DNA of 64,000 bases from assembly GCA_020347565.1 (NCBI GenBank), contig CP070732.1:657972-721971 (forward strand). Reading direction: 5' to 3'. Shown here one piece after another: positions 17,404-55,029 of the stretch (position 1 is its first letter; each line of letters starts with the position of its first letter). Origin of the DNA: Methanobacteriota archaeon. Lineage in GTDB: Archaea; Thermoplasmatota; Thermoplasmata; UBA10834. The notes below the pieces were generated by a model. It ran no database searches, was not told where the DNA came from, and worked only from the letters and a program-made list of their open reading frames with translations. The position numbers and the translations under genes are program-made.

Positions 17404-18384
17404 ATGCCATCTAGCTTCCGGACGTATTTCCTGAAGAGGACATTCTACGTCTTCATATCGATAGTGCTCATCCTGAGCTTCAACTTCTTCCTCTTCCGAG
17501 TGATGCCCGGCGACGTCACACACATTATAATTCCAAAGAATCCGACGAACGAGACCGTCGAGCGTCTGACGGAGTACTACGGACTCGATGAGCCGCTCGT
17601 GGTCCAGTACTTGATCTACATGAAGCAGACGTTCACTGGAGATTTCGGTGAAAGCATCAATTATCGCAGAGGTGCCCCCGTCGAGGACGTCCTATCCTCG
17701 CACATCGTGAAGACCGTCGTCCTCGTGGGCGCCGGCACGATCATAGCGATAGGCTTAGGGATGATCTTCGGGCGCGAGGCAGCATGGAGGCGTGGCACGG
17801 CCTTCGACCGCGTCGGCGGGGCATTCTTCCTAGTGTTCTACTGCATACCGACATTCCTGTTCGCCCTGGTGCTAGTCACGCTCTTCGCCCAGTACGTTCC
17901 AGGATGGCCTATCGAAGGCGAGTTCAGCGCGGACTACGATTCGTACGGCATCCTCGGCAAGTTCTGGGATAGAACGATTCACGTCTTACTGCCGCTTCTG
18001 GCTCTGGTAATCGAATCGATCGCGGCGTTCTCCATAATCACCAGGAGCTCGCTTATGGACGTGCTGACGGAAGAATACATGGTCACTGCGGTGGCCAAGG
18101 GCCTGAAGGGCCGACAGATACTGAGGAACCATGCTATGCCCAATGCGATGCTCCCGGTCGTGACGGTCATCGCGATGAACGTCGGCTGGATCCTCAGCGG
18201 GGCCATCATGATCGAGATCATCTTCTCGTATCAGGGCCTGGGCTACCTGATGTGGATGGCGGTGATAGGCTATGACTACCCGCTGATACAGGCGGCGTTC
18301 CTCTTGGAGGCTGTCGCCGTTATAGTCGCGAATTTCATCGCGGACATCACGCTGTTCAAGCTTGACCCGAGGTTGAAAATTTGA
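17404..18384 (+). CDS. ABC importer permease, DppB/OppB type
   Basis: 326 residues and about six membrane segments of the peptide/nickel importer permease family. The cytoplasmic EAA-like loop reads EYMVTAVAKGLKGRQILRNHAM. It forms half of the membrane channel with the next gene product. I use ATG 17404 because GGGTGA at 17392-17397 lies six bases before it; a GTG at 17398 overlaps that site. The gap to the binding-protein gene is 77 bases, and only 11 bases separate its stop from the next start, so the three genes form one operon. Confidence 0.9.
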   Translation: MPSSFRTYFLKRTFYVFISIVLILSFNFFLFRVMPGDVTHIIIPKNPTNETVERLTEYYGLDEPLVVQYLIYMKQTFTGDFGESINYRRGAPVEDVLSSHIVKTVVLVGAGTIIAIGLGMIFGREAAWRRGTAFDRVGGAFFLVFYCIPTFLFALVLVTLFAQYVPGWPIEGEFSADYDSYGILGKFWDRTIHVLLPLLALVIESIAAFSIITRSSLMDVLTEEYMVTAVAKGLKGRQILRNHAMPNAMLPVVTVIAMNVGWILSGAIMIEIIFSYQGLGYLMWMAVIGYDYPLIQAAFLLEAVAVIVANFIADITLFKLDPRLKI

Positions 18385-21136: not shown

Positions 21137-21339
21137 TTCCGTCCTTCCTCAAGCCGGACAATGCCTCGGCGAAGAAAAAGGTTTCGTCCTGGCGCCAGAG
21201 GCACGCCCAAGGCGCTTCGACCGCCGGTCCAGGTCGTTCCCATCGCCGCGACGGAAGGAATCATGACTCAGAACGACGATTCGTCCCTTCGAGATAGCTT
21301 GCTGGAGGCAGTCCTACGAAGCTGAAGCCCACCACGGTC

Positions 21340-22404
21340 ATGAGGTCCGCGTTCCGGCTCCCCAGACACCACTCCAAGAAGACAGGGACCCCGCCAGGGA
21401 CGCTCATATACACGGGTGAGAAGAAGGTCGACAAGGCGAGGATATCGATCATGGAGTACGACTCTTCCGAGTACTCTGAGCGCGTGGTCGAGGACTTCGA
21501 ATCGTGCCTTCCCATCAAGGAGAAGCCGACGGTGACCTGGCTCAACGTCGTCGGCCTGAGCGATATCGGGATGCTCGAGCGGCTCGGGAAGGAGTTCGGG
21601 CTTCACCCCCTCGTCCTGGAGGACATCCTGAACGTCCACCAGAGGCCTAAGCTCGAGGACTTCGGCGATTTCGTTTTCATAGTCCTGAGGATGGCGTGCC
21701 ACGACGGCGAGGCTGGGGAGCTGAGGATGGAGCAGATGAGCATCATACTCACCGAGGACTGCGTCATCACGTTCCAGGAGACGGAAGCCAACGTGTTCGA
21801 TGACATACGCAAGCGGATAAGGGAACCCAAGGGCAAGATGAGGAGGATGGGCGCAGACTACCTGGCATATGCGCTCATCGACGCCATAGTGGACGGCTAC
21901 TTCATCATCCTGGATTACCTGGGCCAGCGTACGGAGGCGCTCGAGATGGAGCTCGTATCGGACCCCGTCCCCGAGACGCTGCACGAGATCTACAGGCTCA
22001 AACGCGACATGATCTTCCTGCGCAGGTCCGTGTGGCCGCTCCGCGAGGCCATCTCCGCGCTGGACAGGGGAGGGAGCAGCCTCATTCGCGAAGGTACGGA
22101 GCTGTACCTGAGGGACCTGTACGACCACACGATCCGGGTCATCGACGCCGTGGAGTCCATCCGCGATGTGGTCACAGGGATGCTCGACGTCTACCTGTCC
22201 AGCGTGAGCAACAAGATGAATGAGGTGATGAAGGTGCTGACGATCATCGCGACGATATTCATACCGCTCAGCTTCCTCGCGGGCGTCTACGGCATGAACT
22301 TCGAGGACATGCCCGAGCTCGGGTGGGCTCACGCCTATCCCGTCCTGCTCGCGGCGATGGCCATCGTCGGCATCGCGATGGTTGTCTACTTCAGAATGAA
22401 GTGA
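21340..22404 (+). CDS. corA: CorA-family divalent metal (Mg2+/Co2+) channel
   Basis: 354 residues. A large cytoplasmic N-terminal domain is followed by a long stalk helix and two C-terminal membrane helices, with the family's pore motif as YGMNF near residue 320 (GVYGMNFEDMPELG). It forms pentameric channels for Mg2+ and sometimes Co2+ or Ni2+. Its position between the MtgA-like and corrinoid-protein genes raises the possibility that it supplies cobalt, but that is inference. The ATG at 21340 starts about 20 residues before clear family similarity; a later start cannot be excluded. Confidence 0.9.
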   Translation: MRSAFRLPRHHSKKTGTPPGTLIYTGEKKVDKARISIMEYDSSEYSERVVEDFESCLPIKEKPTVTWLNVVGLSDIGMLERLGKEFGLHPLVLEDILNVHQRPKLEDFGDFVFIVLRMACHDGEAGELRMEQMSIILTEDCVITFQETEANVFDDIRKRIREPKGKMRRMGADYLAYALIDAIVDGYFIILDYLGQRTEALEMELVSDPVPETLHEIYRLKRDMIFLRRSVWPLREAISALDRGGSSLIREGTELYLRDLYDHTIRVIDAVESIRDVVTGMLDVYLSSVSNKMNEVMKVLTIIATIFIPLSFLAGVYGMNFEDMPELGWAHAYPVLLAAMAIVGIAMVVYFRMK

Positions 22405-45678: not shown

Positions 45679-46161
45679 TCACTTGGAGAACTTGACGTCC
45701 AAGCGAACTCCTTCCTGCGCTCCGAGCTTCTCCAGGTCCGACCGGTTCACCTGGATCTCGCTCATGCTGAGGTCTGGCATGGCCTCGACCTGCATCCTGG
45801 ACTCCTTGCCCTTGTGCCTCACTAGGACATGCTCGCCAGACCTTGCCTCGTGCTCCCTCAGCAGCTCCTCGTTCAGGCGGGCGACGCCCGACTTCGTCTC
45901 GGAGGACGCGCGGATCCGCAGCATCTCGGTGGACCTGTAGGCGCCGGAAAGCGTCGAGCTCTCCTGCCTCAGCTCCTCCGCTACCTTCTTCCGGATCTCC
46001 TCGGAAGACATCTCGTCCTGCGGCTGTATCCGCTGCGAAACCCTCTTCACCACCTCCGGGGACGCGCCGGCCCTCCGGATCGACTCCTCGAGTTTGCGCC
46101 TGTCGAACTCCTCGAGCTTCCCGGAGCGCTTCCGCACTTGTGCCGTCTCCTCACCCCCCAA
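45679..46161 (-). CDS. Stand-alone ATP-cone domain protein
   Basis: 160 residues. Residues 9-95 match an ATP-cone (VRKRSGKLEEFDRRKLEESIRRAGASPE), the nucleotide-sensing module of NrdR and ribonucleotide reductases. No NrdR zinc ribbon and no reductase are attached. Residues 100-160 form a separate small beta-rich domain (VLVRHKGKESRMQVEAMPDL, EIQVNRSDLEKLGAQEGV) of unknown role. The start is uncertain: TTG 46161 or GTG 46137. It may be a nucleotide-responsive regulator. It is convergent with the unknown gene and divergent from the aminotransferase. Confidence 0.75.
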   Translation of the reverse strand: MGGEETAQVRKRSGKLEEFDRRKLEESIRRAGASPEVVKRVSQRIQPQDEMSSEEIRKKVAEELRQESSTLSGAYRSTEMLRIRASSETKSGVARLNEELLREHEARSGEHVLVRHKGKESRMQVEAMPDLSMSEIQVNRSDLEKLGAQEGVRLDVKFSK

Positions 46162-52301: not shown

Positions 52302-53342
52302 ATGGTTTCTGTTTGCATGTTGACGGAACTGGACAGCTACCGCAGGTTCGTCCCGTACAAGAACCCCGGAGGGATGGGGACTAACGCGCCGATGGTCGCC
52401 AAAGAACTCGAGCGGCTGGGGTGCAGAGTCTACTTCAACAAGCCTAGGGAGGAGTACGACGTCCTTCATGTCCACAGCCCGCTCCCCAACTCGTTCGTGT
52501 GGGCCCTCAGGAGGAGGCTCGCACACAGGCCGCTGGTCGTCCACGGCAGACACCTGCCGGAGCTGGTCAAGGGAGGGTTCGTCGGCGGGAGTCTGTTCTA
52601 CCCGTTCGTCAGGGGATACTCGAGGTTGTTCTACAACCTTGGCGATGTCGTCCTCGGCGCGACCCCATACGTCGCGAAGGCATTGGCCCGGGACGGCGTG
52701 AAGGGCCCCTTCCGAACGATACCCAACGGCATCAACCGAGAGGTCTTCACCCGGGACGAGGTCAAGGGAGCCGCGTTCAGGAAGAGACTCGGCATAGGAG
52801 AAGAGCAGAGGGTCGTCGTCACGGTCGGACTTCGCATACCGAGGAAGGGCGTCGATACCTTCGTCAACGTGGCGCGCAATCTCCAGGACCGGAACGACAT
52901 CAGATTCGTGTGGGTCGGCGCGTCTGAAATGCTTCTCGAGGACGCGCTGGACGAGTCGCCGCCGGACAACGTCGTGTTTCCAGGACACGTGCCCTTCGAG
53001 GACATCGTGGGCGTGTACTCGTCTGCTGACCTGTTCATCTTCCCGACACGTGCCGAGAGCTACGGCAACGCGATGCTCGAGGCTGCGAGCTGCGGGTGCC
53101 CGCTGCTCATCAGGGACATACCGGTCTACGAGGACTGGGTCGTCGAAGGACGACACTGCCTGAAGGCCCGTAGCGATGACGATTTCGCGCGCAAGGTCGA
53201 ATCGCTGTTGGACGACGACGCTCTGAGGCGGCGGATGATTGGAGGCGCGCGTGGGCTCGCGGAGGAGCACGATATCAGGAGGGCCGCCGAGATGCTGAAG
53301 GGACTGTACGAGGAACTTGCGTCCGGGAGGCCGCGGTCATGA
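52302..53342 (+). CDS. GT4-family glycosyltransferase
   Basis: 346 residues with the GT-B fold. The N-terminal domain has YRRFVPYKNPGGMGTNAPMV. The C-terminal donor domain has VTVGLRIPRKGVDTFVNVA and the EX7E motif region AESYGNAMLEAASCGCPLL. It probably transfers a hexose or N-acetylhexosamine to a lipid carrier or glycan. GCGAGAGG precedes the ATG. Its stop overlaps the next start (ATGA), and a flippase lies 3 kb upstream, so a surface-glycan or glycolipid role is likely. Confidence 0.9.
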   Translation: MVSVCMLTELDSYRRFVPYKNPGGMGTNAPMVAKELERLGCRVYFNKPREEYDVLHVHSPLPNSFVWALRRRLAHRPLVVHGRHLPELVKGGFVGGSLFYPFVRGYSRLFYNLGDVVLGATPYVAKALARDGVKGPFRTIPNGINREVFTRDEVKGAAFRKRLGIGEEQRVVVTVGLRIPRKGVDTFVNVARNLQDRNDIRFVWVGASEMLLEDALDESPPDNVVFPGHVPFEDIVGVYSSADLFIFPTRAESYGNAMLEAASCGCPLLIRDIPVYEDWVVEGRHCLKARSDDDFARKVESLLDDDALRRRMIGGARGLAEEHDIRRAAEMLKGLYEELASGRPRS

Positions 53343-53935
53343 TAGGCGAGGAGATCATCGACTTCTTCGCGTCCCTTGGAGATGTGGGTATGATACTCGC
53401 GCTCGTCGCCATCATACTGCTGGACGGCACGGGCTTCCCCACGCTGCCAGAGGTGTGGATGGTCTGGATCTACGGCGTGCACTTCGACTCGTTCGGCTGG
53501 GCCATCTTGCTCATCTTGGTCTCGAGCGTCGCCAGCCTCGGTGGCAACTTCATACTGTACTCGATAGTGAAGCTGATAGGCATGCCGAGGAGGGCGAAGA
53601 AGGTGATGATGAAGTACACCAACTTCCTGATCGTCAGCGACGAACGGCTGCTGCTGCTCAACCGCGTCGCGCCGCTCGTGCCCTACACCGGCGCGTTCAT
53701 GGCCGTCTGCAACTGGAACATCAAGAAGTGCGCGTTCTACCTCATCATAGGCGCGATGGCGAAGGCGTCGGTCGTGATCGCCCTGGCCTGGCTGAGCTAC
53801 GACAACCTCAAACAGGAGATAGCGCCGTGGGTGGCCCTCATCGCGGTGATCATCGTGCTGCTCATAAGCCTCGCTGCATCCGTGACCTACCGCAGGAGGA
53901 AATTCGGCGAGGAGGTGGCCCCACGATCTCAGTAG
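53339..53935 (+). CDS. DedA-like (VTT-domain) membrane protein
   Basis: 198 residues with four to five membrane segments. The early re-entrant-like segment VAIILLDGTGFPTLPEVWMVWIYG and the RVAPLVPYTGAFMAVCNW motif resemble the DedA/SNARE-associated family; related proteins are lipid scramblases or flippases. It may help recycle the lipid carrier used by the neighbouring glycosyltransferases. It overlaps the GT4 gene by four bases, and its 3' end contains the ribosome-binding site and start of the next gene. Confidence 0.82.
   Translation: MIGEEIIDFFASLGDVGMILALVAIILLDGTGFPTLPEVWMVWIYGVHFDSFGWAILLILVSSVASLGGNFILYSIVKLIGMPRRAKKVMMKYTNFLIVSDERLLLLNRVAPLVPYTGAFMAVCNWNIKKCAFYLIIGAMAKASVVIALAWLSYDNLKQEIAPWVALIAVIIVLLISLAASVTYRRRKFGEEVAPRSQ
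53911..53925 (+). promoter_or_regulatory. Shine-Dalgarno and ACG start of the GT2-GtrA gene
   Basis: GGAGGTG (53911-53917) is followed after five bases by ACG ATC TCA GTA GTC. No ATG, GTG or TTG is in frame near the expected N-terminus. Homologues begin Met-Ile-Ser-Val-Val-Ile-Pro-Thr, so ACG sits exactly where ATG should be. Confidence 0.6.
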
Positions 53936-55029
53936 TCATCCCCACCTACAACGAGAAGCCCAACCTGCGGGAGCTCGTCTCGAGGATCGACGCCGCCTGC
54001 CGAGAAAAGGGCATGGAAGCGGAGATGGTCATAGTCGACGACAACAGCCCAGACGGCACCGGCGACGCTGCCGAGGAGCTCGGCAAGGAGTTCAACGTCA
54101 AGGTCGTCCACCGAGAGGGCAAGCTGGGTCTGTCGACGGCGGTGCTCGAGGGGTTCGAGACGGCCACGGGGGACGTGCTCGTCGTAATGGACGCGGACCT
54201 CAGCCACCCACCGGAGAAGGTGCCGGAGCTCGCGGAGAAGATAGTGTCGGGCGAGGCAGGGATGGCCGTCGGAAGCAGATACGTCGAGGGCGGCCGGGTG
54301 GAGAACTGGCCATTGCACAGAAGACTCGTGTCCAGGGGTGCGACGCTCCTCGCGAGATGGCTCACGGACGTCAAGGACCCGATGTCGGGGTTCTTCGCCA
54401 TCAACCGGTCCGTCATCGAGGGCGTGGAGCTCGACCCTGTCGGCTACAAGATAGGCCTCGAGATACTGGTCAAAGGCAGATACGACGACGTCGTCGAGGT
54501 GCCCATTACCTTCGCGGACAGGAAGGCCGGAAGCAGCAAACTGGGCGCCTCGGTGTACCTGAAGTACATCGACCACTGCACGCGCCTGTACGAGCACAAC
54601 AGGCCCTGGCTCGCGAGATACATCAAGTTCGCGTTCATCGGTGGCATAGGAGCCCTGATCAACCTTGCGGTGCTGTGGACTTCGGTCGAGATATTCTTCG
54701 TCCACTACCTGTGGGCGGCGGTGATCGCCTTCGTCGTGGCCGACACGAACAACTACATATGGAACAGATGGTGGACGTTCCGGTCCAAAGGCAAGGTCCA
54801 CGTCCAATACGGCCAGTTCCTCCTGGTCAGCCTGGACGGGCTGATGCTGAACCTGATCATACTCAAGGCCATCGTCGAAGACATAATGCCCGCGCTCGGC
54901 ATTGGTGAGGACCGCGCGAGCGTGTTCCTGGTGGTCGCTCAGTTGATAGCGATCTTCCTCGTCAGCATATTCAACTTCATGGCGAACTCTCTCTGGACAT
55001 TTCACGCGGACATCAGGAGAGGCTCCTAG
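53923..55029 (+). CDS. Dolichol-phosphate sugar transferase (GT2) fused to GtrA-like membrane domain
   Basis: 368 residues from an apparent ACG start. Residues 1-235 are a GT2 domain of the DPM1/polyprenol-phosphate type (ISVVIPTYNEKPNLREL, VDDNSPDGTGDAA, VVMDADLSHPPEKVP, KDPMSGFFAI). Residues 240-360 are a four-helix GtrA domain (FAFIGGIGALINLAVLW, WNRWWTFRSK). It makes polyprenol-phosphate sugars for glycosylation outside the cell. The only in-frame GTG upstream (53827) would overlap the DedA-like gene by over 100 bases with implausible sequence. Confidence 0.85.
   Translation, partial: TISVVIPTYNEKPNLRELVSRIDAACREKGMEAEMVIVDDNSPDGTGDAAEELGKEFNVKVVHREGKLGLSTAVLEGFETATGDVLVVMDADLSHPPEKVPELAEKIVSGEAGMAVGSRYVEGGRVENWPLHRRLVSRGATLLARWLTDVKDPMSGFFAINRSVIEGVELDPVGYKIGLEILVKGRYDDVVEVPITFADRKAGSSKLGASVYLKYIDHCTRLYEHNRPWLARYIKFAFIGGIGALINLAVLWTSVEIFFVHYLWAAVIAFVVADTNNYIWNRWWTFRSKGKVHVQYGQFLLVSLDGLMLNLIILKAIVEDIMPALGIGEDRASVFLVVAQLIAIFLVSIFNFMANSLWTFHADIRRGS

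Follow-up and report, generated by a model that had tools for sequence, protein, structure and literature searches.

What serves as the start codon of a glycosyltransferase gene whose expected first position is occupied by ACG? The gene lies in a 64,000 nt window of CP070732.1, the single 1.97 Mb contig of an archaeal genome (here G000) whose nearest named relatives are metagenome-assembled genomes of Thermoplasmata or Euryarchaeota, e.g. CP070748.1. A preliminary description of the window had reported that a Shine-Dalgarno (SD) sequence, GGAGGTG, ends five bases before ACG and that no ATG, GTG or TTG, the codons referred to here as canonical, is found in frame where the protein must begin. 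Direct reading of the sequence bore out both statements. GGAGGTG is followed by a 5 nt spacer, GCCCC, and then by ACG, after which the frame continues ATC TCA GTA GTC ATC CCC; from ACG it comprises 368 codons and ends in a TAG stop at 55027-55029. The closest in-frame canonical codon upstream is 32 codons away, within an overlapping gene, and the first downstream is an ATG at codon index 30. The features of the locus are:

53911-53917, + strand: SD sequence GGAGGTG, matching the 16S tail (duplex -14.9 kcal/mol, aligned spacing 3 nt)
53923-53925, + strand: ACG, the putative start codon, present in 13/16 orthologues, none of which has a canonical codon here
53923-55029, + strand: GT2-GtrA glycosyltransferase, dolichol-phosphate-mannose-synthase-like (PF00535, PF04138; PDB 5mlz)
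53339-53935, + strand: small membrane-protein gene upstream (DedA-like by eye only), in the +1 frame relative to GT2 and overlapping it by 13 nt

The Pfam matches (PF00535, 128 bits; PF04138, 87 bits) correspond to a GT2 catalytic domain and a GtrA/DPMS membrane domain. Both are shared with the closest solved relative, the dolichol monophosphate mannose synthase 5mlz (E 1e-85), to which the alignment begins at codon 2. From its domains, the protein is predicted to be a dolichol-phosphate sugar synthase.

An orthologue of the GT2-GtrA gene was found in 18 of the 21 genomes of the order, with 62-100% identity, and the 5' end is present in 16 of them. Loci L034-L047, which mostly duplicate the genomes of L005-L019, were excluded from these counts. 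Codon 1 is ACG in 13 of the 16, GCG in two (L007 and L013) and AAG in one (L015, where a CTG lies two codons upstream at normal SD spacing), and ATG, GTG or TTG in none. In seven (L010, L014, L015, L016, L017, L018 and L019), the frame contains no canonical codon from its preceding stop to codon 1, and in the other nine the nearest upstream canonical codon is 32 or 45 codons away, inside the neighbouring gene. In 73 of 76 GT2 homologues from outside the order, the stretch from the upstream stop to codon 1 contains a canonical codon, two lack one there, and one reaches a contig edge; at the GT2 start column itself, a canonical codon appears only in such more distant homologues (L022/L049). Among the outside-order homologues without a canonical codon back to the stop are L025 (G081) and L027 (G149), of family f18 in the same class, in which an ATT or CTG that follows a G-rich stretch may be the start.

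The conservation of ACG extends to the codon itself. When the 90 four-fold degenerate columns with at least 11 identical residues among the 16 orthologues were compared, column 1 was the only one with a single codon (13/13 ACG); the median share of the top codon was 0.56, and ACG makes up 42% of the other Thr codons in these genes. Codon 2 is also well conserved (ATC in 14, ATA in one and GTC in one). The preliminary description had left open whether ACG is used or is an ATG that was miscalled or had recently mutated, and had proposed comparison with orthologous loci as a check. That comparison lends good support to the use of ACG. As the same ACG is present in 12 other genomes of the order, a miscall or recent mutation is excluded for practical purposes and has next to no probability.

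GGAGGTG is a perfect match to the anti-SD, as the 16S tail of the same genome is GGATCACCTCCT. The aligned spacing of 3 nt in the window is close to the median of 4 nt for canonical starts common to G000 and G002. A strong SD is present in all 16 orthologues (-9.1 to -15.4 kcal/mol), and its spacing to codon 1 is 3-6 nt in 15 of them. The mean share of canonical genes that lie within 1 nt of the observed spacing was 0.45 for codon 1, compared with 0.14, 0.04 and 0.006 for codons 2, 4 and 5, respectively; the spacing fits codon 1 and does not fit the other three.

The upstream gene at 53339-53935 had no Pfam match at E 0.001, only weak sub-threshold ones. Its own start and the stop of the preceding gene (52302-53342) form an ATGA overlap at 53339-53342, and the operon therefore uses tight stop-start overlaps. 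In L012 and L013 the likely start of the upstream gene is CTG, where orthologues have TTG or ATG. At its other end, the C at 53924 doubles as a base of the upstream gene's Arg codon CGA, which a T at this position would convert to TGA. Such a CGA encloses the middle C in 10 of the 13 genomes with ACG and in the two with GCG. Part of the conservation of ACG may thus stem from the overlapping gene, yet L005, L014 and L018 are free of this constraint and still have ACG. The sequence is compatible with a possible origin of ACG from an ancestral ATGA stop-start overlap by a single T-to-C change; if true, this would have added 3-4 residues to the upstream protein and weakened the GT2 start at once.

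ACG also exchanges with canonical starts in other genes. A comparison between G000 (602 kb) and G002 (800 kb) yielded 175 reciprocal pairs in true frame, and ACG stood at the SD-supported start column of at least one partner in five of them (2.9%): GT2, HypD, an ATP-cone-like gene, a permease and CorA. This figure was obtained by hand from discordant pairs and homologues across the order, a procedure by which ACG/ACG pairs are easily missed. Besides GT2, three of these genes lie in the window:

45679-46146, - strand: ATP-cone-like gene, probable ACG start at 46144-46146, ACG in 6/15 orthologues
17404-18384, + strand: ABC transporter permease (PF00528), ATG in the window, where G002 and G010 have ACG at this column
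21316-22404, + strand: CorA gene (PF01544), probable ACG start at 21316-21318

For HypD, the start column in the 20 loci with 5' ends (21 in all) is ATG in 15, GTG in one and ACG in four (G000, G012, G008 and G018), and the tree requires at least three changes at the start codon. The ATP-cone-like gene, so named from a weak match to anaerobic ribonucleotide reductase, is more varied: 15 loci with 5' ends (16 in all) include six with ACG, four with ATG, three with TTG, one with CTG and one with another codon, and in two of those with ACG (L332 and L337) no canonical codon occurs from the upstream stop to codon 40. Among the 10 nearest orthologues of the permease, two have ACG and eight ATG, a count that leaves out the other 20 of 30 loci, which are more distant or have a shifted or unreported start column; in L227 (G010) the ACG immediately follows a TAA stop. 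The five CorA orthologues have ACG (G000), ATC (L200 in G006) and ATG (three). An ATG without an SD is found 8 codons further into CorA, and all four genomes with an ACG in HypD likewise have an ATG 8 codons further in.

A stricter automatic tally found an SD-supported canonical column in 79 of the 175 pairs. The codon was canonical in both partners in 63 and another canonical codon was nearby in 10, while the remaining six had ACG (three), GTC, CTG and GTA (one each); the GTA row is the ATP-cone gene and the GTC row looks internal. In a control pair taken from a different Thermoplasmata family (G032/G074; GC 39 and 44%), 53 pairs gave 20 SD-supported columns, none with ACG, but 20 columns are insufficient to demonstrate that the order is different. 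A further pair, G051/G067, shared only two orthologues and was unusable as a control. The start of aIF1 is ATG in 17 of 17 genomes of the order, and the comparison thus does not yield ACG everywhere. A tally of codons that follow any SD, made without orthologues, was dominated by chance and was discarded. Three candidate genes were also rejected: TrpG, which has an ATG directly before the ACG, and HypF and the pair A_-_386470, which have shared or adjacent canonical starts.

Other codons were seen in similar positions. CTG is the likely start, with TTG or ATG in orthologues, of the G000 ORF A_-_401869 (hisG-like by eye) and of the G002 orthologues of A_+_552500 and A_+_507118; thus, non-canonical starts in the order are not confined to ACG. 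ATC in the G006 CorA (L200) and ATT in the G002 orthologue of A_+_151536 occupy SD-supported columns where orthologues have ATG. In G000, a permease at 781827(-) and a membrane ORF at 735797(-) have CTG-ACG or ACG-ATA after a strong SD, with no canonical codon nearby.

Three further explanations of the GT2 start were weighed. Translation could begin at a neighbouring codon, either ATC at codon 2 or, where present, GTG at codon index 3 or 4. The codon 2 counts given above are in keeping with this, as are the ATC at the CorA start column of G006 and the GTG that 14 of the 16 orthologues have at one of these two indices. However, these GTG codons are poorly spaced from the SD and are missing from the window genome and L013, the spacing shares favour codon 1 over codons 2, 4 and 5, and the alignment with GT2 homologues of solved structure begins at codon 2, so that we consider a neighbouring start improbable. 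A programmed -1 frameshift that joins the upstream and GT2 proteins into one would be consistent with the overlap of the two genes in the appropriate frame in 13 of 16 genomes and with the runs of 4-9 G that precede ACG in 12 of 16. The window genome has no such run, the relative frame is different in L014 and L015, a TGA interrupts the GT2 frame three codons 5' of ACG in L010, L016, L017 and L019, and in L018 the upstream gene stops before ACG. As the GT2 frame is not open from the slip site in four genomes and the upstream frame falls short of GT2 in L018, the fusion was rejected as very unlikely indeed.

C-to-U editing of the mRNA, which would convert ACG to AUG and GCG to GUG before translation, was also considered, and 15 of the 16 GT2 codons are ACG or GCG, one such step from a canonical start. 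We know of no mRNA editing of this type in archaea, and count this against it. The bases that flank ACG vary from gene to gene, and editing would not account for the ATC, ATT and CTG starts that these genomes also have. ACG to AUG editing is known in chloroplasts (PMC9845219, in excerpt), and the edited plant starts described there likewise read ACG at the DNA level. Unlike them, the archaeal ACG is preceded by a strong SD and is accompanied by non-canonical starts that are not of the C-to-U kind; editing would leave no sign in the DNA. We regard editing as quite improbable.

Near-cognate (non-AUG) starts are a known kind, found in prokaryotes in, for example, the AUU of infC. Some animal-virus proteins reportedly start at ACG, e.g. 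Sendai virus C', with an ordinary Met initiator tRNA as would be the case here; C' relies on eukaryotic scanning with no SD, whereas the GT2 gene has an SD. Features common to the GT2 start, the infC AUU and ACG reporters in Escherichia coli (PMC6925171, in excerpt) are that the start is SD-driven, one base from AUG and expected to be weak. The GT2 case differs in its middle-base mismatch, the type one would least expect in a start codon, in its conservation across an order and in the exchange with ATG in several genes. In the open-access literature, a body that excludes most subscription papers, we found no report of ACG starts in archaea or of a conserved one that exchanges with ATG. Gene finders usually accept ATG, GTG and TTG, and where they are limited to these, N-termini in the order would be set wrongly or genes overlooked. 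Exchange of ACG and ATG within one lineage, in genes like hypD, also makes archaeal start selection, with respect to SD strength, aIF1 and aIF2, directly testable.

The reading we prefer, and hold to be very probable from the sequence comparisons, is that ACG at 53923 is the working start of the GT2-GtrA gene, driven by its SD and tolerated across this Thermoplasmata order, where several genes show ACG in exchange with ATG, GTG and TTG and where GT2 has retained it. Counting against this reading are the GCG and AAG at codon 1 in two and one of the 16 orthologues, which are not good near-cognates (though the AAG genome has its upstream CTG), the poorly spaced GTG codons of GT2, and the ATG codons further into CorA and HypD. 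The strong SD would position the 30S subunit at ACG, where the ordinary Met initiator tRNA would be accepted even though its middle pair is a C-A mismatch. The product would begin with Met; its translation would probably be weak and probably coupled to that of the overlapping gene upstream. In the excerpted E. coli reporter data (PMC6925171), a group of codons that includes ACG gave 0.1-1.5% of ATG, and low GT2 output is therefore to be expected; it is plausible that ACG limits GT2 expression. The ACG of GT2 probably dates back to the ancestor of the order and has been maintained from there, in part perhaps by virtue of the overlap with the upstream gene. A broader proposal, to which we give an even chance, is that ACG serves the order as a regular fourth start codon, in some 2-3% of genes, owing to an initiation machinery that accepts the middle C-A pair, and that in GT2 it provides a fixed low-output setting in an overlapping operon.

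The tRNA that we take to be the initiator of this genome, from features associated with initiators, is of the ordinary type with a CAU anticodon, and no initiator tRNA with CGU or another anticodon was seen among the tRNA genes examined. Loss of aIF1 was rejected as a cause, as aIF1 was found in 17 of the 21 genomes of the order. Several tRNA genes of G000 (L145, L147, L149, L152, L156, L161, L163, L165, L166 and L167) are unusually long (95-113 nt) and apparently contain introns, and the elongator Met tRNA is among these.
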